This document shows, one piece after another, positions 625-48,407 of a stretch of DNA of 64,000 nucleotides. The position numbers and the translations under genes are program-made. The first letter of the stretch is position 1. Each line of letters opens with the position of its first letter. Origin of the DNA: Dendrophyllia cribrosa (lineage: Eukaryota; Cnidaria; Anthozoa; Scleractinia; Dendrophylliidae). The stretch lies in the NCBI GenBank assembly GCA_024195265.1, contig JAJLRJ010000006.1, forward strand, positions 26,206,270 to 26,270,269. Direction: 5' to 3'. The notes below the pieces were generated by a model. The model had not been told where the DNA came from, ran no database searches, and saw only the letters and a list, made by a program, of their open reading frames with translations.

Positions 625-3600
625 GTAATTATGTTTTAAAATATACAGACATTTCAGTAATACTATGTTGTTATTTATAAATTTTGCTCTGTTTATCGAA
701 CAAAGAGGTATTACTGTCTCAGGGCATTGCAACCTTTCCATTCATCCTTTATTTCTTGTTTGAGATACTTTTAAAAGTGCATGATTGTAGTTAGTAGATA
801 GCAGGTCGCGTCCTCTTTAAGGTGAGATGATTGTTTTGACTACCGTTTACCACTTATTGCTGTTTGTTTGTATGTCTGTTGGTTACCATGTTGATCTATT
901 GATGTTAAGTCGATCGCTTTTCTTGCGAAAAACTGCAGTCAAAACATAACCAATTTTGAAAAAAAAAAACAGAACATTTGTCTAATTAACAAACTGTCCG
1001 CTATTGATAGCGTTATCCCTCTAAATCCTAATCGCGTTCACAGGACGAAGTAATGAATTTACTAATCTTTAATGAACCTTTACTTGCACTTAAAATCGTT
1101 ATGGACGAAATAATGAATTTACTAATCTTTAATGAACCTTTACTTGCACTTAAAATCGTTATTGCGTCCTGCTCAGTTTCAACACCTCAAATAATTTTTT
1201 TTGCCAAATGAATGGCAAAAATGTTAAAAAAATGTCTCAGGGCATCACTGGGGGCATTATATGCCTTTTTGTGTTATTTCCTTAGTTAATGCTCTTGGGA
1301 TGGGCCACTAAAAACTCAAGGAAACTGGCCCGACTGGCCACCAAGCACTGGAGTTAATTTTTAGCCCTGCAGTTAGGGGTTAAGGCTACACTAGGGCTAA
1401 AAATTCAGTTAAGGTTAGAATTCACACTTGCTTTGGGTAAAAGGGCTCACCTCACAGTTAGTTTTACTATCATTATAGTAAAAGTGTTACAGACAAGCCT
1501 CTCTAATACTAACATTACCTGAAAAAGAAGAGAATAAATCGTGTTAATGAAGAAAAACAGCTGTGTCGATCGACCTGTGACGGAAATAAATCTGTTTCCA
1601 AATTTTTATATTGCCCTCAGATAACAAAAATCCATCGAAACTGCTGGGAAAAAGCATCTCAAAATTAGTAAAGTGGTCGAGTTAAAAAGCGATATCTTTT
1701 AAAATAGTGGAGAGTATGGCAAATTTCACAGACGTTTGGCAAGACATTTGGCTGCGCGATACAAACGTATGTGAAATTTGCCGAATTTGCGGAGCTACAT
1801 ATTCTCCACTATTTTAAAAGATACATGTATCACTTTTATACTCGGCCACTTTTCTAATTTTGAGATGCTTTTTACAGCAGTGTCGATGGATTTTTGCTAT
1901 CTGAGGCCAATATAAAAATTTGGAAAAACAGTGATAAGACCTATTGATGTTAGGTTAAGTTTAGATCAATCGACTTTTTAGTAAATTGATCATATGTAGT
2001 TTCAGATAGTACTTTGCTATGTACAATTTCACCACTCAAATAAAGCCCCGTCACTACAAGGCGATGTAAGATTAACACATGCAAGAATACAAGGCAAAGT
2101 TAAATTCAATAAAGCTATCTAAAATTTGAAAGGTAGGAGTCATTAACGAGCGTTCATTTGTGAGCACATGTGACCAACACTAGCGTGACATGAACTACAT
2201 GACTTCTGTACATGTATTCAACGAAACCATGATGGAAACAGTTCGTCTCAGACACAGCCATTAAACTACGATAAAATCGCAACAAAGAAAACACTGTTGT
2301 GAAAGTAACGTCCCTCCGTACGTTTAATTAAGAAGGAATTAATATAGTATAACATAGATTGTATTTTTAGATCGTATTTCTTCCGCACTGCATTCAGGGC
2401 ATCATATTTCTCCTCGTGTTTGTTTCAGGGCGATCATGCACCAACTAGCATTCCGTCGACCGGCTGGCTTTTAAAAAGCAGCATCCTTTTATCCGTGAAG
2501 ACAAGTTAAATAACGTTTGAATTCAAAGGTTAAAAGCTTCGAAAGAAGGCGACACCATTATATGCCTGGACAAGCATGTTAAGATTGTATACTCGCGGTT
2601 CACGCTAAATTGTGTTCGTTCGAAATTCGTTTCTGTCTCAGTAACATAACAATTGATCGATATTTTGATCTCCTTTGGTCAATGCAGTGCTCATTTTAAA
2701 CCTGCAAGGGAAATTATCCACTTACGTTTTCCTTGGCGATCAACTCTTCTTATTTCTGCTTCCTTCGATGCAGGATCTGCTTGCGAAATATTAAAGCAAC
2801 AACACAGTCACATGTCTAGTCAGTCATTAACCGCTAACAACGTTTGCCCGCTATGAGTTATGGGTATTTTTAGAGCAAATCGTGAAGGGAAGCAATACAT
2901 TCTGTCTTTAGAGGGATTTTATTAACACTGCAGCCAACCAAAAATCAAAGCTTAAAACTTCGCTTGCCGTATATCCCAAACCCGAAACTCACAGAAATGT
3001 ACCATTTGGCTCGCTGCAGTGTCTTCACCGTTTGCAGAGCGAGGCTGAAACGTTTTGGCACCACCGGAGTGGTCTTTCTTTTATGCTCTCGGATCGGTTC
3101 ATCGGCCCGATTACACCTCTTTAAGCCATCTCGTACTTAGATGATGTACCAGGCACTCTGCAAACGGTGGATTTTTTCGAATTTCAGCCTCTGAGCCGTG
3201 ATTCAACCTCTTGGTTTGCCCGCAGCTCTGATCGAAACGTTTGCAGATTCGTACATAACGTTCGAAAAGAGGAAGCTTCTGCGCATGGTCACGGCTTTAA
3301 AATCTGATGCCCAGTACTTCGTGGACAAAGTAACGCAATATTGTAACGCAAACTGATCATGCATGAAAGGCAACTATATATATATACACAGGACGAAATA
3401 ACGACTTTAAGTGCAAGTAAAGGTTCATTAAAGAAAACTTAAAGAACAATTTCGACTATCTTTAAGTGCACCGTAAATTACTTAAATAAGCCTTTACTTG
3501 ACAACACTTAAAGCTAGTAATGAACAATTTAAGTTGCCTTTAAGGGTCTTTAAGTTGTTGAAAAGTTGAATTAAAGATGACGTAAAGGTTCTTAAACACA

Positions 3601-6206
3601 TTAAAGATACTTACTTACTTTAATACATTTAAGAGTATTTACGTCTCAACTTAAAGATTTTCGATACCTTTAAGTAAAATTTAATTTTCTCTTAAAGATT
3701 AGTAAATTCATTATTTCGTCCTGTGCTGATATTGTCAATTCCAAAGTTCAATTGAAATCTATTTTCATTTTATATGCCTCTTTCGCCAGCTTGTCCTGAA
3801 TACTCCAAATGCATCCAGATAACTCCACACTTCTGCGAATGTTGGTGCAAATATTATAATCCTGAGCTTCCGGGGATTGGTCCATGCAAACTTTACGGTA
3901 GGCAAAAGGCCGTAATAAATGTTTTATACAAGATTAAATTGCAGTGGCACATACCTTCGACCACCTTCCTGTATGTAAGTGAGATTTTATCTTCAAGAAA
4001 AGTCTATGCCTTGGACGTGACTGATTTTCATTTCATTTAAAAATGAAATATATCCTTTACCTAATGTGAAAACGACCTACATCGGATAAACAAGATACCA
4101 TTTCTAGTCCATTACAGCATCATATATAACTCCAAGAACCAACCCATATTGCCGACGTCAGGGGCAGGAAAATACACGTATGTCCAATAATATTGCCTTT
4201 GTTCCTGATTGGTTGAAAAACCAGGATTTTGCTTTGATTGATTAGAATTTAATATTAACGCTCGGAAAAACAGGATAAAATTGACTTGAAACCCATTCTT
4301 GTGTTAACGAACTTGCAGTTTTATTTCTGCTGTAGATTATCCAGTTCTTGATGATTTCCCAGAAGCTGTCATTTATGATGCGGAAACACAACCTGTCACT
4401 CCAAATCGCTTTAGACGGGATGAGACACGAAAACTAGACGCATCGTTTGATTTGGGCACCAGAAATTCAAATGAAATCTTATTCTATTGGAAAATACAAC
4501 ACCTTGAATTGTCACCATTTAAAATTTCTAACAACACAGAGCTGTTAGTGAGCAACACTCTTGAGCTGAATATAGGACGTAAGTTGTTGACATCTGGATT
4601 AAAGTTGGTAGTGTTTGAGCTACAGGTGAAGGGGTGTCCCCTGATTGCTCGAGACTTTGCTTTTCTGAAAGTTGAAGATGCAGCTCTCGTAGCCACATTT
4701 GCAGGTGGAACTGAGATCTTACGATCTCTCAGCAAGCCAATTATTTTGGATGCCAGTTCGTCTTATGACCCAGAAAGTGGAGCTGGAGTCCTTTCAGGAA
4801 TGACTTTCAATTGGTCGGGTTTTGTACTTTCAATGAATAACGTTTCTGGTGTCAATACCACGCTCAAGAACCTTTCTGTTGCTGTCAATAACAAAGGGAA
4901 AATATTTTATTCAATTGTTCACTCAGCATTTAATCAAACTTTCCTCCAAATGCCAGACAATGTATTTCTGCATTCCGAAGATGGTAAAGTTACTCTTGAT
5001 GCAGGAAATCTGACTGCCAACAAAACGTTTTACGCACTTCTCACACTTCACAAAGACAAACGTCAGGCAAATGCAATGCAAATCGTTCGTATCCATGATC
5101 GACTGCTTCTTGACATTCGTATTCGGTAAGTGGAAGTGTTTGTATAAACATGGTTATTTTTGTTACATATAATTATCCTCTGATAACTGGACTGAATTGC
5201 ACTAATCAAATCACATAATTGCTTTAATCACATTAATAAAAAAATTGAGATTAAAATCTATGTGAACTTTATTCTACTAAGAACGTCAGGAATGATTTCT
5301 ATCAGTTTGAAACCAGCCCAGCAAAGCCAAAAATAACCCATTTTAGTTCAGCTGATTGACGCGCGCACAACGTAGGTGTCCAATAGAGGTTTTGCACGGC
5401 AGCCATGTTGCATGGCAGGAACAATAGATTATTTTCCCTATGGGAAAGAATGTTCTTTCTAATGAAAAACATTTTCATTGTTCCGGCCATGCAACATGGC
5501 TGTCGTGCAAAACCTCTATTACAGCTTTCCAATTACACAAAGTTGTAATTGTATAGCTGTATTTGGACACCCACGTGACCTCGCACCACTTTCGTGAGAA
5601 ATAGGCACCATATGACCAATCTCAATCGAGAATTTTGTTATTGATACATACAAACGTGTAACTCAACCAGCCTGTTGAGGCTTGAGCTGTGTTTGGGGGA
5701 AAATTTGAATCTGATTTCTCAAATTTCTTCACACTCAAGGAGATTCGTCAGACCATCAGATTCGTGATCTGCATGAGCGGGATTTTTGGAAAGAAGTCTG
5801 GCAAGGGGTCTTTTGTGCAAATTTACTCGTTCCGTCCGATGTTTTGTTTCTTTAACGATGTCATATCATGCTTAATTCCGGTAAGATTTCAGTGCCTTTA
5901 TTTCGGAAATTAACTGTTAAAGTAGAAAAATCATAAGCTAGTCCAAACCAACCAGATTTTTCTATAGATTTGTCTTTTTTGTGGTCGGGGGGAAGGGGGG
6001 GGGGGGGGGGAGGGGGAGGGGGTGAGATAAAGAATCCATATGATTCGAGATCGCAAATCCGATTTCGGATTGTGCCAAAAACTCAGCCTTAGATTTCGGC
6101 GATTTTAAGGGACTGTGCAATAATTATCAGGGGGATAAGAAAATGGGCTTCAAGTAGGAAAATATTAGGTAATTCTCCCCTTCTAAAGGAGTGAATTTAG
6201 TTATTG

Positions 6207-38799: not shown

Positions 38800-39615
38800 A
38801 TAAGACCTTATATTTTTTATCCCACCTCAAACCCTTTTGCTTCCAACAATTCCACTGTCTGGAGTTCAGTGATTATTTGCATGCAACAACAACAACAATT
38901 TTTTTATACATGGAGTAGTGAACTGGCAAAAGTTCTAGCATTCTAAGAACAGCTAATATACCGTAATTAAAAAATTCAATAGATTCATTAAAATAAGGTG
39001 TATATCCTGGAAAACTAAGAAAGCGAGTTACATTTTTCAAACTCGAACTCGAACTAATACTAATATATATAGATAGGCAGAGCCTAACAGCGTAGCAATA
39101 TGAACAACCTTAAAAACTTAAACTAAAGTGAAAGGTCGGAAGCACAAGAATTAAGATTGACGACCGGGCTATTTTTCAATTTTAGCAATTGTCAAAAAAA
39201 CAGTATTACCCGACCGTCTGCACAGTACATTTAGACCGTACAAAAGTTCACAAAAACAACTTTTCTCTGTCTAGAATAACAGGTACGACTAACTTCCGAA
39301 TAAAATACAGTTTTTGTTTGTCAAAAATTGCCCGAGAAACTGATTTGGAAATCAAAATTGCAAAAATACACAAACATATTTGCATAAGGCGACGCGAGTG
39401 AAGACAGAAAATCTAAGTCTAGTTTTGTTTACATAAAATCGCTTTTCAATCTATGTAATGAATGAACAAGCACATAAAAATGGACAACACAATCTTCTTT
39501 CGAAAAATTTTATTCAAATCTTCATTAGTTTATGTTTAAAAGTAAAACACGTTGCATTTATAGCGCATCAAGGCAGAGCTGTCCTCGATGAAATTCAAGA
39601 TAACAACACGACTTA
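38800..39615. other. No gene or repeat recognised
   Basis: AT-rich sequence with a short (CAA)n run near 38884. It ends in TTA at the left border of the 8.8-kb element. Confidence 0.5.
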
Positions 39616-39656
39616 GGGACGGACCATTATTTTTCTGGAGGGGGGGTATGAGAAAT
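39616..39656 (+). repeat. Left 41-bp terminal inverted repeat of the 8.8-kb element
   Basis: Identical to the complement of 48364-48404. Just inside are repeats of ctctgcaaaca/cctgcaaaca followed by T runs (39661-39730), likely subterminal binding sites. Confidence 0.85.
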
Positions 39657-40257
39657 TTTCCTCTGCAAACATTTTTTTTTTATCCATGCGCCTCTGCAAT
39701 TATTTTTTTTAAAAACAAACCTTCCTGCAAACAATTTTTTTCATTGTGATCTTGTAAGGTTCCAAAAAAAATATTAAGGTACTTTTTCCAAGTCACTAAC
39801 AGTGCTATATACTGGTCTTGTAACGCTTTCGAGTGGCATATCACGAGAAAGTGTTGCATAACTATTTTATACCATGCCGTAGAAAATACAGTAGGAAGCA
39901 CCATCAATGCGACATACGTGCAGCGCACGATGGGAAGGTTGGGTGTAATACGGTCGAACAACGGCTTTCCTGTATTCTGATTGGTTGTATTTTCTATGGC
40001 ATGGTATAAATGCATTTAAATTGCCTATTTTTCTAAATAGTTTCTGTAAATAAATTTATGCAGTAGTCACTTATATTTGTTGTGGTTTCTTTATACATCA
40101 CTTACCATTCTATTTTAGATAGAAGTACGCAGTACTACTGTGGAGATGTATATATTTTGAGGCTCGGGAATAGTGGTAGTGAGCGAAAAGTCGTTTGTTC
40201 AATCCTGGTCTCTAGCGTCGTGTTGGTTCCTTTGATAAATTGAGCAACTTCACTCCA

Positions 40258-40545
40258 CATTGTATAAATGGGTTGTGTCCTTAATAGACAAGAAACTTTA
40301 CTCCATATTGTCTCTCTCCACCCAGGTGTATACATGGGTTGTGTCCTTAGACAAGAAACTTCACTCCACATTGTCTTTCTCCACCAAGGTGTATAAATGG
40401 GTTGTGTCCTTAGACAAGATACTTTATTCCATATTGTCTCTCTCCACCCAGGTGTATAAATGGGTTTTGTCCTTTATAGACAGGAAACTTTACTCCACAT
40501 TGTCTCTCTTCACTCAGGTGTATAAATGGGTACCAGTTACCGTTA
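40258..40545. repeat. Minisatellite, four units of about 63-68 bp plus a partial fifth
   Basis: Each unit reads tgtataaatgggttgtgtcc, then a variable tag(a)caagaaactttactcca and tattgtctctctccaccc. It lies between the left terminal repeat and the 3' end of the large minus-strand gene. Confidence 0.9.
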
Positions 40546-40713
40546 GGTAAACTTCACAGAAATACTGGGGGTAACCCTGTGATAGACTAGCATGCATCTA
40601 TAGTCATTTCATGCTACAGAAACCATAGCAAAGCGCGGACACCGATTAGCCACCTGGTTAGTTCATTTTTCTTGGGCATGGGCTTTTAATACCTTCACAG
40701 TACTGCTACAAAG

Positions 40714-43700
40714 CTACTGACGCACATAGAGGGCATATGACAGGCAATATGCCAAGGGAGTTGCAGGCTTTTTCCCACAATACTTGAGGCCAGACCCTCG
40801 TTGACGATGCTCCCATAGCCCATCGTACTCATACCACCCGGCCTGTGGTACCAATGGTGATGGTAGGCACATTGCTGATTTGAAATGATTGCCATTGCCA
40901 TACGTTACTCCAAACAACTTGTACGTAGTCAATGTCCCATTAGCTTTCAAAATCATGTCGTCAGGAAGATGACCGACCTCCAACACTCGCCCATTCCTTG
41001 ACAGAATGTCAACGTTACATGGTAAAACAAGCGGCATTCCTTGAATGAAGAACCGGTTGGACTCTGTTCTTGAGCCCTGGCACAGTGAGCTACTGCGCTT
41101 CTTTTTCCGAAGGCAAGGAGAAGGGGTTGTCTTGTGGAGCCAATTGCAGACAGACATCTTAAAGCTATTTTCAGGTGTGTTCGCTTTGGCATCACTAAGG
41201 ATTATTTCAGAAGACTTTGATGAAATTGAAGGCTTTGGGCAAGTGCTCTCACTGCAAACGGTGTTGTAGGTTGTGGCAAGTACATTAGCCATTGCTGAAA
41301 TGAAAAAGTCGTATTCACTCCCAAATATGTCAATGACAGGCTGTGTAAGGTCAACTTTATGCGGGAACATCTCCAACCAATGCATTTTACCAAGCACAAA
41401 TTCCCCAGCCTGAAAATATCTGTGTACACCCATAATACGCTGGTAAAACAAATCCTTCTCAGCCTGCACTATCGCGGGATAAAGGGTGCAAATGAAGTGA
41501 AACATTGTAAGCCAATTGTCTATTGGGCATGTGTTTTGCAGTCTTACAACGTTTCCGTTGTACACTGTGCTACCTGCCCAAGGTGGAACAGGCGGCAAAC
41601 TGTTGTTGGTGTGGCTCTTTGTGCGTTGGACTGTCATTTTCAGAGAGACACCTGTATTTGGTATGTGACCGCACATAATGTTCTCTTTGATTAGTTTTAC
41701 TTTCTTCCTTTTGTTGAATCCTTTTTTCTTTGCATCTTCAACTGACATACCACAACATTCTGTAAGATACAAGTTTAGCTCTGCAATAGAAAGATCTGTT
41801 AAACCGCCATATTTTGCCAGGTGTTCCCAGTCAATGTCATCAACATGTTTTGCTGCTGCAGATTCTTTGGCAGATTTTTTCTGGGTTTTTTTCATTGTTG
41901 CCTTAATTTCAAGTTCAACTTGTTTCTTGGCTTCTTTCAAGACTTCATCCCTCAAGTCTTCCCCCACAAATTCAATAACAAGCGCATCTACACCATCAGT
42001 TACTTTCGTCATTGTTTCGTTGCTGTCGACAGGTGTAAGAGTTTGACTTCCGTCATCATGGGTAGTGGTGTTATATGAAAGTTGAGGTTTCCCACAATCT
42101 TTGATTAGTTTATGAAGCTGTGTACGGGGACAGTAGTCATCCACTTCTCGCGTTTTACTCATTACTTTGGCTTTACTAAGAGAAAACTTTTCCATGAAGT
42201 TTCCAGACTCTACCTGCTCGGATGAACAGTAGTGAAAATCAGATGATTCTTCATTGTAATCAGGAACTGGGGCATTCACTCTTTGCACTGGAAGATCACT
42301 CCACCCATCAGCGTTGAGTCGATCTGTGTTTTCCACAGAGGCATGGAAGTGACACTTTTTCTCACAAGCATCTCGAATTGCTTCCACTCCGCCATCATAA
42401 ACTCGATAATGCTCGGAGAAAAATGTTTGCTGGTATTTGAAATATGCACTTCCTGCGCATGCATTTAATGCCTTAGCTGACGAAGACATGCTACACTTTA
42501 CAAGGAATTCATGGTCAAAGAAAAAGCCATCCCATGAACAGTCGTTTGGAACTCTTGCATGTATAGAGGTTCCCATGCAAGGCTTTCCGTCATACAACGA
42601 GGCAACGGATTTGGCACATTGATATGCTTCGTCTTGTTCCTTTCTGGTCATCACATCGTTCAGTTCGTCGTCTTTCATGATCAGAATTTCGCCAGGTGAA
42701 ACTATACTGGTGAGTGGAACTGACGGAATTGGAATAGTATGTCCTGACCCAGCATGTTCATTCAGTGATCTCATCACCTTTTCTGCAATGTGAACTCTTG
42801 AGTCCCCGGGAGCATAGTGTAGTCTAGCCTGTAAATCCAAACTATGAATCTGGAATGCTTCTGCAAGGCGAATTTGTGTCACTTTCTCCTTGGAGTTCAC
42901 CCCGGGACCAGCATCGGAAGTTTGAATTTCAATTGCACGGTGCTTTGGAAGATTCAGAGATTCTAACTGAAGTCTCACTCGTCTAGCTTCAGACTTCAGA
43001 GAGCCATATTCTGACAGTAACTGTTGCTTTGACTCCTCACCTGGACATGAAACTTGAACTATTTTTTGCAGATCTTCTACTTGACTCTTTAACTCATGAA
43101 GCTGGCTGACAACTGTAGAGCAAATGTTATCTTCCCTTGTATCAAGGTTTGTGAGGACATTTGTTACTGATTCTATCCTTCCTTTCAGCACATCCAGCCT
43201 CAGTTCCTCTCTTGCTCTATGATCACTTCCATCTGAAATGCGTAGAAAATCAGCCTCGATTGTCATAAGTTCAAACTGTAACAAGGAGTCCCGTATAAAG
43301 ATGAGATGGCTGGCAGCTTCTGTTGGTTCCAGAAACACTTTTCCATGCTCTTCAGAGAAGTTGCTTGGAAGTTCGTGTTCTTCTCTAAATAGAAGCCTTG
43401 AGGAGTACAGGTCATTGGCCCAATTTGTAGCATGTGATGGATAGTAAACTTTGGGTTTACAGTTCACGGAAACTGTCACATCTTCGGGGACATACTTGTC
43501 TCGCCCATTGTATTCTGTCTCACTTTGTTCATTCACCATCAAAACGACACCAGGGCTCACATATCCTGTCTTCTTTGGATAGTCAGAGGAGGGAAGCTCA
43601 AACTTTAACTCTTCCTTAGCCAACTGCAACGGCCTGTGCAAAGGTCGAGAGAATCCTTCAGAGGTTCCACACCGGAGGTAGCATTTGTCATCGACTGCTA

Positions 43701-45090
43701 AACGCAACACACGACCTCTATGTTTTGAATTCTTTGCAAAAGCGAGCCTTGTGTAGTTCTTTATGAAAGCTCTGTTGTAATGAACATTTACATGTCGATT
43801 GCATTCCTTCTTCTGACTTCTGGTGAAGGACCACAGACTTTTGCCCCTGTGTTGTTTAGCTTGTACTGAGCGCTTGTTTCGAGGTTTTCCAAATGCTCTA
43901 ACAGTTTCTTTTGACTTTATCAACCTCGTGTTGTTTTTCTTTAAAAACTTGTTGGCAATTCGGAGCATCTCCCTGCTTTGGATTCGCTGAGAAGGTTCAT
44001 CCAAGTACGCTGTTCCTTCTTCACCATGCCGGCGCCTGTGGGCTTTTGAATGCTCTGCAAGTACATTGTAGATGGCATTTTCCGCGCCTCTGTCAATTAG
44101 GTAAGACCCCCTTTTCTTTCCCTTTTGATTCCACAAATCAGATTTCCACGCTCTAAACTTTCTATAAACATACTGCTTCCTTAGGCTGGTAGAATCCTCC
44201 TGTAATGTCTCAAGTTTCTGCCTCTTGTTTGCAATATCACTTTCATAATCACTGATAATGTTTTCATCAAGGCGTTTCCTTTTCTTGGCAAGGGATTCTG
44301 ACTTTTTCTCAAGGGCATTTCTCAGTTTCAAAACTGTTTCTTCTACATGAGTAGCTGCTTCATTTTCGAATTCAGTCATCTTATCTGGGACAGACCACAG
44401 CATGTCTTCAACCTGTCCTTGAACACTTGACACGAAATCCGGATTCAGGCCTAGATACTCCTTTAGTCCCGTTTTGCTGAAAATGTTGCTGAGAATATAC
44501 AGGAGTAAGTACCTGTCCTTATTTGTTGAAGTTAAGGACATCAGGTGTTCAAAGACTGGGGTAAACGACTTCAGTTTTTCATTAAGAATTGTAGGCTGTA
44601 GTTCCTCAACAATAGATTCCAACACCTCTTCAAAGCTGTTGCAAATTTCCTGGTTTACACCGTTCTCCATCAGCATAACAAATGCTCTCACACCTGTTGT
44701 TAAGTAAATAACAGGGAGGCCAGCATGTCCAAGCAGCTTCTCTTTGAACGTCTGCTTGGCGTTGCGCATTACTGACTCGGAAAGTTGTGTTATATCTCTG
44801 ATGTGAGATGTGTAGTATTTGAAGCACTCGTCAAATGCCATAACCTTTCTAATCAGCAGTTCGTCCAGCAATGATGACAGGGCTGTGAAGGCAGAGGCTG
44901 ATTTTCTGTTTTTTTCTTGATCTTCCAGAATTTTCATCTCAATAAACGCTTGGCAGCTAATGACAGACTGAACATTCAATGATCGCTCGATATGAACTCC
45001 ATTCTTTTTGTGAAATTTTTCGCTGTCGTCAATTACTCGAAGATTCCTCAGATCTCTCCTGCGTTCATTCCACTCGTTTGTGCTCGCCAT
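40714..45090 (-). CDS. Unrecognised 1,458-residue intronless protein with SAP-like motif and USP-like C-terminus
   Basis: One uninterrupted frame from ATG at 45090 (context caacATGgcg); an in-frame GTG further upstream is not a likely start. Visible parts: helical N-terminus; a coiled coil with a basic KKRKR cluster (about residues 270-340); a basic Lys/Arg stretch; a second heptad-like region near 650-720; a SAP-like motif (about 1097-1138, LSIAELNLYL...GFNKRKKVKLIKENI) that may bind DNA; and a C-terminal 270 residues with N-T-C-P-I-D-N (Cys1188) and G-N-H-F (His1402) then G-W-Y-E-Y-D-G. That order matches the Cys and His boxes of ubiquitin-specific proteases (C19), though overall similarity is not evident. 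It lies inside the 41-bp inverted repeats, head to head with the gene at 45309. No DDE transposase is recognised; it may be a transposon protein or cargo. Confidence 0.8.
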   Translation of the reverse strand: MASTNEWNERRRDLRNLRVIDDSEKFHKKNGVHIERSLNVQSVISCQAFIEMKILEDQEKNRKSASAFTALSSLLDELLIRKVMAFDECFKYYTSHIRDITQLSESVMRNAKQTFKEKLLGHAGLPVIYLTTGVRAFVMLMENGVNQEICNSFEEVLESIVEELQPTILNEKLKSFTPVFEHLMSLTSTNKDRYLLLYILSNIFSKTGLKEYLGLNPDFVSSVQGQVEDMLWSVPDKMTEFENEAATHVEETVLKLRNALEKKSESLAKKRKRLDENIISDYESDIANKRQKLETLQEDSTSLRKQYVYRKFRAWKSDLWNQKGKKRGSYLIDRGAENAIYNVLAEHSKAHRRRHGEEGTAYLDEPSQRIQSREMLRIANKFLKKNNTRLIKSKETVRAFGKPRNKRSVQAKQHRGKSLWSFTRSQKKECNRHVNVHYNRAFIKNYTRLAFAKNSKHRGRVLRLAVDDKCYLRCGTSEGFSRPLHRPLQLAKEELKFELPSSDYPKKTGYVSPGVVLMVNEQSETEYNGRDKYVPEDVTVSVNCKPKVYYPSHATNWANDLYSSRLLFREEHELPSNFSEEHGKVFLEPTEAASHLIFIRDSLLQFELMTIEADFLRISDGSDHRAREELRLDVLKGRIESVTNVLTNLDTREDNICSTVVSQLHELKSQVEDLQKIVQVSCPGEESKQQLLSEYGSLKSEARRVRLQLESLNLPKHRAIEIQTSDAGPGVNSKEKVTQIRLAEAFQIHSLDLQARLHYAPGDSRVHIAEKVMRSLNEHAGSGHTIPIPSVPLTSIVSPGEILIMKDDELNDVMTRKEQDEAYQCAKSVASLYDGKPCMGTSIHARVPNDCSWDGFFFDHEFLVKCSMSSSAKALNACAGSAYFKYQQTFFSEHYRVYDGGVEAIRDACEKKCHFHASVENTDRLNADGWSDLPVQRVNAPVPDYNEESSDFHYCSSEQVESGNFMEKFSLSKAKVMSKTREVDDYCPRTQLHKLIKDCGKPQLSYNTTTHDDGSQTLTPVDSNETMTKVTDGVDALVIEFVGEDLRDEVLKEAKKQVELEIKATMKKTQKKSAKESAAAKHVDDIDWEHLAKYGGLTDLSIAELNLYLTECCGMSVEDAKKKGFNKRKKVKLIKENIMCGHIPNTGVSLKMTVQRTKSHTNNSLPPVPPWAGSTVYNGNVVRLQNTCPIDNWLTMFHFICTLYPAIVQAEKDLFYQRIMGVHRYFQAGEFVLGKMHWLEMFPHKVDLTQPVIDIFGSEYDFFISAMANVLATTYNTVCSESTCPKPSISSKSSEIILSDAKANTPENSFKMSVCNWLHKTTPSPCLRKKKRSSSLCQGSRTESNRFFIQGMPLVLPCNVDILSRNGRVLEVGHLPDDMILKANGTLTTYKLFGVTYGNGNHFKSAMCLPSPLVPQAGWYEYDGLWEHRQRGSGLKYCGKKPATPLAYCLSYALYVRQ

Positions 45091-45308
45091 GTTGAAATAT
45101 TGGGCAAATACGAGGAGAAACTGTAGCGAGAAGAGCGAAAACGTTCGATGCACGAGTGACACGAGGTCGAGCTTTAATAAAACTGATACTCGACTGACCT
45201 ACTCGACTACGGAAATCAGGAATAACCACTTTGATAATCTCAAACTAACAAAAGGACTGGTGACTATTTGAAAGAAAAACCGCTGTTCACTGAACATGCA
45301 TTTTCAAA
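45091..45308. promoter_or_regulatory. Divergent promoter region, 218 bp
   Basis: The only space between two start codons facing away from each other. Both starts have strong context (caacATGgcg and caaaATGgcg). No TATA box at a convincing distance is seen. Shared use by both genes is inference from spacing. Confidence 0.5.
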
Positions 45309-46904
45309 ATGGCGGACACGCTTGCTTTCGACAAATTTCTTTGTGATGCAAATTTGCAAATGTTTAAAGATAAATTCGTAAGCGAAGGGGTGGAAAGAGT
45401 GCGTGACATCACGGATGTTTCAGATGATACTCTTACTGGTTTTGGGATGTCTAAAACTCAAATACAGCGATTGCGAAGGCTCTTCAAACTCTGGCAACTG
45501 GAAACCAGCATGTCAAAGCCCAGCGACCAAAGCATTCCCCCAAAGACAAAAGAAGTGGAGGGCAGGGTAAACGTTCATGTGCCTTTGAACTTTTTCAACT
45601 CAACAGGAGGAAATATTCTTCAAATATCGCGAAAACCGTTGGAAAAACGCTACTCGAAACTGTGGTACTCGAACCCAAACTCGCTGAAACAGACTTTAAA
45701 CAATTCGTTTATTCTTGCCATGTGCTATGAAAGGGACCGTGACTTTAATAACATCCGTTTGCTCGAAGACTGGGCCAGGAAAGAGAGGGAACGAAGAATT
45801 TCAGTGCTGTTGTCTATCCATCCCTGTGATGTAAATTTGGCAAAGGAATCTGTATACATCAAACAAAAGTCAGTACCTTGGATGTGGAATCAGTTAAAAA
45901 AGAATTATCCTATGGCTGCCACTCTATCAGCAGACACAAAAACCTTTTCTGGATCAGCTGCAAAGGATATACTTTTTTACTATGATGGTGTCAAAGAATT
46001 AGAAGAGAGTGTGAACAGAGTGTTAAAAATGGCAGAGGATGGCTTGTCTGAAACCACAGACAGTGGTATGAAAATGAAAGAATCGTTTAAAGGTGCACAC
46101 CAATGGTATTCTGAAGTTTTACCACAGATCACTGAACTTCAAAACAGAGTGGCAACAGACCTTGCTAGAATATCCACACTCAAAGCAATTGTTGTAAGCA
46201 AGTACCATATGGAAGAGACAGTGAAAGTCATTGCTGAAAGAAAACGAAAGAAAAATGCACGGAAAGAGAAAAGAAAGAAATTAAAGCAGACAGAATCATC
46301 ATTGAACAGCAGTTCAACCAAAAGCATTGGGCAAAAAGGACAGAAACTGGTGTCCTATTTTGCCAAAACAGACACAGTTGATGAGGCCCAAGTAAACAGT
46401 CAATGCAAGGCAAACACCATGGGGGAAGATGGTAGTTCAGTTATCAATGAGGATATGGTTTCAGAGGAAAGTGTTTCCCTCCAAGCAAGCACTCAGTGCA
46501 AGCCAAACACCATGGGGGAAGATGATAGTTCAGTCATTAATGAGGATATGGTTTCAAAGGAAAGTGTTTCCCTCCAAGCAAGCACTCAATGCAAGCCAAA
46601 CACCATGGGGGAAGATGACAGCTCAGTTATTAATGAGGATATGGTTTCAGAGGAAAGTGTTTCCCTCCAAGCAAGCACTCAGTGCAAACCAAACTCTGAA
46701 GAAATATATGTTACTTCAGATGTTAGTGAGGGTATGGCTGCAAAAGAATGTACATCCCTTCATCAAAACTTTGAAGAAAAATGGGATATATTTGATAACC
46801 AATCTGAAATAGGCACAGACAGTTCAGAAACAGACAGTGACTCGTCTGCTGATGAGTTTTCTGCTATTGATCCATTACATGAGGATAATGTGGAATACAT
46901 TTAA
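45309..46904 (+). CDS. Unrecognised 531-residue protein with SAM-like domain and internal repeats
   Basis: Intronless frame from ATG (context caaaATGgcg). Residues 1-63 (FDKFLCDANLQMFKDKF...DDTLTGFGMSKTQIQRLRRL) fit a sterile alpha motif (SAM), usually a protein oligomerisation domain. A central part rich in aromatic and charged residues (SKLWYSNPNSLKQT, VPWMWNQLKKNYP) is followed by helices and a strong nuclear-import-like cluster ERKRKKNARKEKRKKLK. KLVSYFAK near residue 345 resembles a PCNA-binding (PIP) motif but lacks its Gln. Three 31-residue repeats follow, then an acidic Ser/Asp-rich end. It is head to head with the 1,458-residue gene within the 8.8-kb element, so a joint nuclear function, perhaps in transposition, is inferred. 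Confidence 0.8.
   Translation: MADTLAFDKFLCDANLQMFKDKFVSEGVERVRDITDVSDDTLTGFGMSKTQIQRLRRLFKLWQLETSMSKPSDQSIPPKTKEVEGRVNVHVPLNFFNSTGGNILQISRKPLEKRYSKLWYSNPNSLKQTLNNSFILAMCYERDRDFNNIRLLEDWARKERERRISVLLSIHPCDVNLAKESVYIKQKSVPWMWNQLKKNYPMAATLSADTKTFSGSAAKDILFYYDGVKELEESVNRVLKMAEDGLSETTDSGMKMKESFKGAHQWYSEVLPQITELQNRVATDLARISTLKAIVVSKYHMEETVKVIAERKRKKNARKEKRKKLKQTESSLNSSSTKSIGQKGQKLVSYFAKTDTVDEAQVNSQCKANTMGEDGSSVINEDMVSEESVSLQASTQCKPNTMGEDDSSVINEDMVSKESVSLQASTQCKPNTMGEDDSSVINEDMVSEESVSLQASTQCKPNSEEIYVTSDVSEGMAAKECTSLHQNFEEKWDIFDNQSEIGTDSSETDSDSSADEFSAIDPLHEDNVEYI
46401..46709 (+). repeat. 93-bp coding tandem repeat, three copies plus a partial fourth
   Basis: Units start at 46401, 46494, 46587 and 46680, exactly 93 bp apart, each encoding QCK(A/P)NTMGED and SSVINEDMVS(E/K)ESVS. 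Copies differ at only a few bases, so the expansion is recent or homogenised. The frame is preserved. Confidence 0.95.
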
Positions 46905-47060
46905 CTTTAAACAGTTTATAATATATTAGTATATACCACAAAAGTGAATAGTGCTTTCGCTCTATAATAGTTAACTATTCACCTTGACTTGACTTGACTT
47001 ATCTTATGCATCTCCTAATCTGTTTTCATTTAATAATAGGTGCTGATTTATGATAAAAAA

Positions 47061-47170
47061 TATTTGTTATGAAAAAAGTGCTCAGTCAAACCGACTACAA
47101 ACTGTTAAGGGATTTTCCCTAAAAATCCTGTACATCGAGACAATATTGGGCACTTTTTTCATAACAAATA
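47061..47170. repeat. 110-bp hairpin within the 8.8-kb element
   Basis: tatttgttatgaaaaaagtgc and gcacttttttcataacaaata are exact complements around a centre with aaggga/tccctaaaaatcc. Flanking tgctgatttatgat occurs on both sides (47041, 47177), possibly a target duplication. Confidence 0.75.
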
Positions 47171-47836
47171 GTTAATTGCTGATTTATGATGATAAAAATA
47201 CATTATGATTAATTATTATCTGATCACAGGTAAACCACTAGGGATTGTGGAACACAAGTGTTGTTGTTTTAGTTATTAGTCATCGCAATGAACATTAATT
47301 GGTAAAGGATTGATGCTTTTCTATTAAGAATGTAAGCTGGTGCAGCAAGTGGGAACATAGTGATCCAACCTTAATTTTTACCAGATGATAAACTTTATTC
47401 CTGCCACAAACAAAGGAATCATTTGTGAAACTATACAAAAATACAGTCCTTGTTTGTATGAATAAATAGAGAGTTCTTGTTTGTATTACAGAATCTTGGA
47501 GATTAAGCTGTTATTAAACAATGTTCAGTGTTTTTCCATGTAAGTGACTGGCTTCTGACAAGGGATTATTCTCTTGTTTATGAAACATCATGCATTTACT
47601 GCGCCTTTCAATAATGGTTGAGTTTTACACTGCCGTCAATCACTGTAGCAGAAGCTTAAGAAACAAAGTAGCTTAGTTCAACAGGGTCAAAAGGTCGCAT
47701 TCGTACACAGTGATTGGTGGATTTTGTGGACTTTGTTTGATTGACGGCAGGAAAAAACGCAACCGTTAGTTGAGATTTAAATTTCATGAGTCTCCATTTT
47801 ATTGAAAGGGGTAGTAAATAGCAATGATGAGTATAA

Positions 47837-47998
47837 TATACTGCAATTGTTAAGTTTAAATATTTAATGCGCCAGAAACTAAAATGACTGCCACACAGAA
47901 TTTTCTTTTCCACTGAAGAAGGGGCAGTAGCCTCGAAACGTATGGAACTTTTTAGTTTCTGGCGCATTAACTATTTAAACTTAACAACTGCAGTATAT
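47837..47998. repeat. 162-bp hairpin within the 8.8-kb element
   Basis: tatactgcaattgttaag then tttaaatatttaatgcgcc and agaaactaaaa pair with ttttagtttctggcgcatt and cttaacaactgcagtata. Non-coding. Confidence 0.75.
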
Positions 47999-48363
47999 GT
48001 TTATATGTGCTACACAGTTTAGTCACATATTTTTTTGAAATTACCTAATGATGAGTGTAGCTGAGTTTTATCAAATTTCTTGAATCAACTTTTGACAGAA
48101 ATTTGATAAGTTAGAGAAGTAAAAAATTGTTGATATTTAATTCCTTTGATTTACCAAATAACCCAGCTGAGTATATTCTTGTACTTTCAATCTGGAGGTC
48201 TCACGTTAAGATTTTAAATTTAAGTTTTCGAACTAATTTTTTTTTCATGAATAGCTGTTAACTTCGTTTGTGTGGCTCTTTTGCAAACTTTTTTTTTTAT
48301 ACATATTGCGTTTGCAAACATTTTATTTTGTCTTTTCAGGCTCTGCAAACAATTTTTTTCAAT

Positions 48364-48404
48364 ATTTCTCATACCCCCCCTCCAGAAAAATAATGGTCCG
48401 TCCC
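48364..48404 (-). repeat. Right 41-bp terminal inverted repeat of the 8.8-kb element
   Basis: Exact complement of the left end. Inside it, three copies of ttgcaaac/ctgcaaac with T runs (48280-48357) lie in the same + strand orientation as those of the left end. Confidence 0.85.
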
Positions 48405-48407
48405 TTA

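Follow-up and report, generated by a model that had tools for sequence, protein, structure and literature searches.

A recently mobile 8.8-kb DNA transposon in Dendrophyllia cribrosa that encodes a SAM-domain protein and a candidate DDE transposase of divergent sequence

An element of 8.8 kb was analysed in the genome of Dendrophyllia cribrosa (Scleractinia), where it lies within a stretch of 64,000 nucleotides on contig JAJLRJ010000006.1 (positions 26,206,270 to 26,270,269; the whole stretch is called the window below). The element is a real, recently mobile DNA transposon, which carries two divergent open reading frames (ORF1 and ORF2) between perfect inverted ends (Table 1). It is complete and probably autonomous, and it probably moves by cut and paste. 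ORF1 is likely a highly divergent DDE transposase and ORF2, a SAM-domain protein, its probable partner.

Copies of the element were searched for in the whole genome assembly (627 Mb in 22 contigs). Since only 32 of the 772 first-look candidates for ORF1 were scored, the resulting copy count is a lower bound; among the 36 matches listed, at least 20 were full-length, the window included. Twenty regions were compared with the window, namely the other 19 full copies and one locus (L028) whose match starts at residue 45 and whose region runs into N; the latter was left out of the count of ends. All 20 full copies had both ends with the termini GGGACGG and a matching target-site duplication, TTA in 8 copies and TAA in 12, which is the same trinucleotide read on opposite strands. 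When the sites were oriented on TTA, the base immediately 5' of it was C in 12 of 20. Outside gaps the copies differed pairwise by 0.043% on average and by 0.148% at most, with no difference at all in 10 of the 190 pairs. The frames were broken in three copies, by a stop in ORF1 of L020 and by a frame-shifting insertion in ORF2 of L014 and L015. In a further copy, at C1:13.42 Mb, ORF1 is split in two, and by its coordinates this copy has both ends and a matching TTA; partial copies were found at C12:4.83 Mb and C20:35.58 Mb.

As insertion with a 3-bp duplication predicts, the flanks of one full copy (L026, C6:19413438-19423011), when joined at a single TTA, matched at least 40 uninterrupted paralogues at 97-100% identity (the best 40 of 1,472 candidates). 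Because near-identical copies with ends, matching duplications and an empty site were all found, the element is a recently active transposon and not two solo miniature inverted-repeat transposable elements (MITEs). The chance joining of two such MITEs was rejected, as the entire 8.8 kb recurs in 20 copies. An earlier note, made from the letters of the window, had described the 41-bp inverted ends, the TTA flanks and the two divergent intronless genes, and had supposed a transposon with a TWA target; this description was confirmed for the element in the window, and both ends with a TTA or TAA duplication were present in each of the 20 copies. The same note would have given up the idea if the two genes had proved to be syntenic, single-copy and free of such ends, or if the ends had belonged to different solo MITEs; both are contradicted by the near-identical copies with ends. 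L026 is itself inserted into a different hairpin-type repeat of high copy number, which has at least 40 near-identical copies in the genome.

Beyond the perfect 41-bp core, the inverted arms reach 45 nt at 98%. When up to three mismatches were allowed, a 28-base pattern of the ends was found within the window at the two element ends only (mean of 100 shuffles, 0.00). Inside the ends there are three subterminal repeats on each side with a spacing of 31 bp, and the right set lies on the same strand as the left set, not inverted. The CTGCAAACAATTTTTTT-type repeat, with up to three mismatches, had 9 matches in the whole window, 6 of which are the two subterminal sets; these repeats are candidate protein-binding sites. 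Both ORFs are open and lie head to head 218 bp apart, and their open frames suggest that the genes are intronless.

Table 1 Features of the element (coordinates in the window; +, - and. give the strand)
Feature	Coordinates	Strand	Basis or remark
Complete element, 8,789 bp	39616..48404	.	Both ends common to 20/20 full-length copies judged, 8,783-8,793 bp
Left target-site duplication, TTA	39613..39615	.	Read directly; empty-site support via copy L026
Right target-site duplication, TTA	48405..48407	.	Read directly; duplications match in 20/20 copies
Left 41-bp terminal inverted repeat	39616..39656	+	Perfect match to right end
Right 41-bp terminal inverted repeat	48364..48404	-	Perfect match to left end
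Three left subterminal repeats, CTGCAAACAATTTTTTT type	39663..39741	+	Starts 39663, 39694, 39725; 1, 3, 0 mismatches
Three right subterminal repeats, CTGCAAACAATTTTTTT type	48281..48359	+	Starts 48281, 48312, 48343; 3, 3, 0 mismatches
ORF1, 1,458 aa, candidate transposase	40714..45090	-	20/36 listed genome matches cover residues 1-1458
Candidate DDE region of ORF1, residues 455-785 (D467, D726, E770)	42736..43728	-	Invariant triad; order of predicted strands and helices in two weak models
Helical-bundle insert of ORF1, residues 574-716, between D467 and D726	42943..43371	-	Predicted helices; structural matches to helix bundles
C-terminal domain of ORF1, residues 1186-1458 (C1188, H1402, D1423)	40717..41535	-	Cysteine-peptidase-like by motif only
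Intergenic stretch, presumed shared promoter	45091..45308	.	Position only; putative function
ORF2, 531 aa, SAM-domain partner protein	45309..46904	+	SAM_TNK match; homologues P0002, P0003
SAM domain of ORF2, residues 9-60	45333..45488	+	SAM_TNK match
93-bp tandem repeat within ORF2, 31-residue unit	46388..46694	+	
63-bp tandem repeat, left end to ORF1 stop interval	40261..40531	.	

ORF1 is likely a divergent DDE transposase. One protein relative was found with the whole ORF1 and 63 with an alignment of its core; named among the 63 were two proteins of Paramuricea clavata and one of Porites evermanni, and by this sequence similarity the transposon family has relatives in corals. The two Paramuricea clavata relatives carry the source names of an ion channel and of a reverse transcriptase-type protein, which suggests that members of the family now go under wrong names and have not been recognised for what they are. 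Two alignments were used: A3, with the window and 40 of the 63 relatives, and A5, with the window, 28 of these relatives and a translated piece of a second family described below (L029). Counting the rows with a letter at the position, D467 is D in 40/40 (A3) and 24/24 (A5), D726 is D in 9/9 and 15/15 (one of these 15 rows being poorly covered at that point), and for E770 the counts of E are 9/9 and 14/14. The adjacent D468 varies, with two N in A3 and two N and one G in A5. In both AlphaFold models the order is strand (D467), strand, strand, helix, helical insert, strand (D726), helix and helix (E770), with a fifth strand in model 2. A DDE domain of RNase-H type that carries a helical insert would be expected to show this order.

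Several results weigh against a two-gene element with its own DDE transposase. No curated profile or PDB sequence marks ORF1 as a transposase in searches of Pfam, NCBIfam and PDB sequences, so that the earlier note's remark on the lack of a recognisable transposase stands as far as curated families go. Against Pfam, no convincing family and no DDE family was obtained for ORF1 at expectation values (E) up to 1, and the A3 profile gave nine weak matches to unrelated proteins among PDB sequences, the best being a 26S proteasome subunit (E 0.0087). Both models are weak, with a mean local confidence (pLDDT) of 63.7 and a predicted template modelling score (pTM) of 0.35 for model 1, and 61.9 and 0.49 for model 2; the stretch with pLDDT below 50 holds D726 and E770 in model 1, and D467 and D726 in model 2. 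Structure comparison matched the helical insert alone, to helix bundles. The RNase-H fold is therefore tentative, and the DDE reading is taken as likely, not as shown. Sequence variants in the 20 copies (8 synonymous and 13 non-synonymous, where a ratio of about 21:79 would be expected in the absence of selection) are too few to prove selective constraint. Finally, an element whose ends are of this type (L042, within C1:18248780-18254620) carries a Tc1/mariner-like frame at 3687-4799 on its minus strand, and tblastn found neither ORF1 nor ORF2 in it. In several relatives (P0010, P0012, P0014, P0016, P0025 and others) the similarity and the open frames stop near ORF1 residues 639-675, as if an intron started there, and the gene in the window continues unbroken. 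A prokaryotic or viral origin was considered and set aside, as scans of GTDB genomes and viral contigs gave no relative within their reach, which is limited to sequences sharing the chosen peptide patterns.

The genome also contains a second family with this layout. It has two copies of about 9.3 kb by coordinates (L029/L030 and L031/L032), with ends that begin GGGGCGGACCATTAGAAATCCCGG and TTA on either side, and ORF1 and ORF2 are divergent in both. In the copy analysed in full (L029), the ORF1 match to the window covers residues 46-1455 in five pieces at 34-53% identity, which suggests introns or decay, and the ORF2 match has 28% identity over residues 7-201. The subterminal repeats of this family (TGCA[GC]GAATTTT type) run in the same direction at both ends, as judged by eye. 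A third two-gene relative (L041) has divergent remnants of ORF1 and ORF2; no ends were found in its 9,901 bases, of which 3,865 are N.

The earlier note had called the ends Harbinger-like. Indeed, ORF1 could be an extremely diverged PIF/Harbinger (PHIS) transposase whose partner gene has been replaced by the SAM protein, which would make the element a distant offshoot of an established superfamily, although we consider this unlikely. As described by Han et al. 2015 (PMC4482050), PIF/Harbinger elements have a TWA target, a transposase with DDE and helix-turn-helix domains and usually a Myb/SANT partner, and they average about 4.1 kb in length. The 3-bp TWA duplication, the two-gene layout and ends beginning with A or G (here G) agree with this description, and the order of the triad on the predicted strands and helices is compatible with the order given there (PMC4482050). 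However, the element has a SAM protein in place of the usual partner, an ORF1 of 1,458 residues with a helical insert, and about twice the published mean length. PF13359 was not among the ORF1 matches at E up to 1, nor among the 25 listed of 57 families for the 41 members of A3, and the Pfam matches of ORF2 up to the same E include no Myb/SANT domain. The PF13359 profile itself works in this genome, where it had at least 150 matches over its cut-off (150 scored of 1,358 candidates). As profile searches gave neither the Harbinger DDE domain nor a partner with Myb/SANT, PIF/Harbinger membership is unsupported, and what stands of the likeness is the TWA target and the first base G. Canonical PF13359 loci are very abundant in the genome, and several groups with identical scores suggest recent families.

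This abundance bears on whether the two ORFs are the element's own machinery or cargo moved in trans, between which the earlier note had left the choice. A canonical PIF/Harbinger transposase recognising the same ends could mobilise ORF1 and ORF2 as cargo, given that at least 150 such loci were counted, that the target site is identical and that the interior of some elements bounded by such ends is non-coding or unrelated. Yet 12 of the 150 PF13359 loci fall on C1:1-34.6 Mb, and in a limited test there none of them lay closer than 34 kb to an exact end (variant ends could escape the exact pattern); the nearest distances were 34, 42 and 191 kb, and 2.7% of this region lies within 6 kb of an end. 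Moreover, the sole ORF1 copy of the region sits between two exact ends, and the ORF1/ORF2 pair has been kept in a diverged family whose ends diverged correspondingly. The cargo explanation is therefore held to be improbable, somewhat more so than a diverged Harbinger enzyme. Own machinery is preferred because the D-D-E triad is invariant and because the layout with similar ends persists in the strongly diverged second family.

The exact end motif TWAGGGRCGGACCATTA occurs 876 times in forward and 872 times in reverse orientation, 1,748 in all, and the reversed-pattern control gave none in either; this number shows the weight of the family in the make-up of the genome. Pairs of ends were scored among the first 100 places listed, all on contig C1. 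There, 25 pairs of neighbouring inward-facing ends less than 12 kb apart were found, with spans of 234-8,792 bp and matching duplications in 24. Four elements of this kind were compared with the window as non-autonomous relatives. In the two short ones, L034 (270 bp) and L035 (386 bp), the similarity to the window's terminal region continues past the inverted repeat; in L036 (1,529 bp) it is found mostly at the ends, and L033 (4,306 bp) holds a short remnant of the ORF1 C-terminus (E 6e-5).

L042, mentioned above, is a 5,766-bp element with TAA on both sides, and its Tc1/mariner-like frame matches HTH_Tnp_Tc3_2 (E 1.8e-12) and DDE_3 (E 4.5e-9); a second frame (1766-2779, plus strand) has a weak Rep match (E 0.013). 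An enzyme of this kind might mobilise these ends, with ORF1 and ORF2 as passengers. However, a single element of the L042 type was seen, and its frame may itself be an import, although nested inverted ends around the L042 frames were looked for and not found. The 3-bp TTA/TAA duplication is also unlike the TA duplication given as general for Tc1/mariner in PMC10045372, and no TA stands directly at both junctions in the 20 copies. Of the explanations considered, a Tc1/mariner-like helper is the least probable and is regarded as very unlikely.

ORF1 as the element's own transposase, the preferred reading, can be set beside other known systems. According to PMC10045372, Repbase in 2022 counted 23 eukaryotic DNA transposon superfamilies, of which 21 have a DDD/E transposase; Zator and ISAzo13 share the 3-bp duplications, and Kolobok, hAT, P, MuDR and Dada, likewise with DDD/E enzymes of eukaryotic elements, form a group of C/DxxH transposases. 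ORF1 differs from the former two in that no Pfam DDE family was among its matches at E up to 1, and from the latter five in having its insert between the first and second acidic residues, and no C/DxxH spacing was seen by eye between D726 and E770. Pfam does hold an ISAzo13-like transposase model; the hAT and P enzymes have large insertions in the catalytic domain, and the target duplications of Kolobok, hAT, P, MuDR and Dada differ from those of this element. Academ elements have 3-4-bp duplications and long proteins, as here. CACTA elements end in CACTA or CACTG, in contrast to the GGGACGG of all 20 copies.

No match was obtained to the transposon families compared (Pfam, NCBIfam, PDB sequences and published descriptions), and the element possibly belongs to an unnamed superfamily; abstracts and listings of the literature gave no description of a transposon with a SAM-domain partner or with these ends. 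Tentatively, and with slightly more doubt than belief, we propose an unnamed eukaryotic DDE superfamily. Its very large transposase would have a helical-bundle insert and a tail resembling ubiquitin peptidases, and the element would combine this enzyme with a SAM partner, direct subterminal repeats at both ends and a Harbinger-independent targeting of TTA; hundreds of non-autonomous elements in this genome would derive from it. If this were true, a further superfamily still nearly clonal in a living genome would be directly testable and might serve as a genetic tool.

In the proposed mechanism, ORF1 would cut at the GGGACGGACC ends through D467, D726 and E770, the first two being separated by the long helical insert, and insertion would take place with a 3-bp stagger at TTA/TAA, with ORF2 probably acting as the partner of ORF1. 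The SAM_TNK match of ORF2 has E 1.2e-9, over its cut-off, and the two database homologues (P0002 and P0003) have 49 and 41% identity. ORF2 has a conserved central block around NSFIL and shares with both homologues a QKL[VM]xxF motif, which we take to resemble a PCNA-binding box. SAM domains often self-associate, and ORF2 may therefore assemble on the three subterminal repeats of each end.

For the C-terminal part of ORF1 a cysteine peptidase activity is possible, with ubiquitin or ORF1 itself as substrate; by its motifs it resembles the ubiquitin-type cysteine peptidases, with C1188, H1402 and D1423 as a candidate Cys-His-Asp triad of the CA clan. No peptidase family was among the Pfam matches of this tail, and no profile backs the likeness. 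Within it, NTCPI[DE]N is kept in all three aligned rows that reach the tail (the window, P0064 and L029), two others (P0052 and P0040) stopping earlier, and its GHY and YYYDGLW motifs are also present in the second family.

Four long hairpins lie inside the element (47836-47998, 47612-47768, 47058-47173 and 39866-40010), with arms of 25-49 nt that are 84-96% complementary. They look like small nested insertions, and the one at 47058-47173 is bordered by a related direct repeat (at 47041 and 47177).

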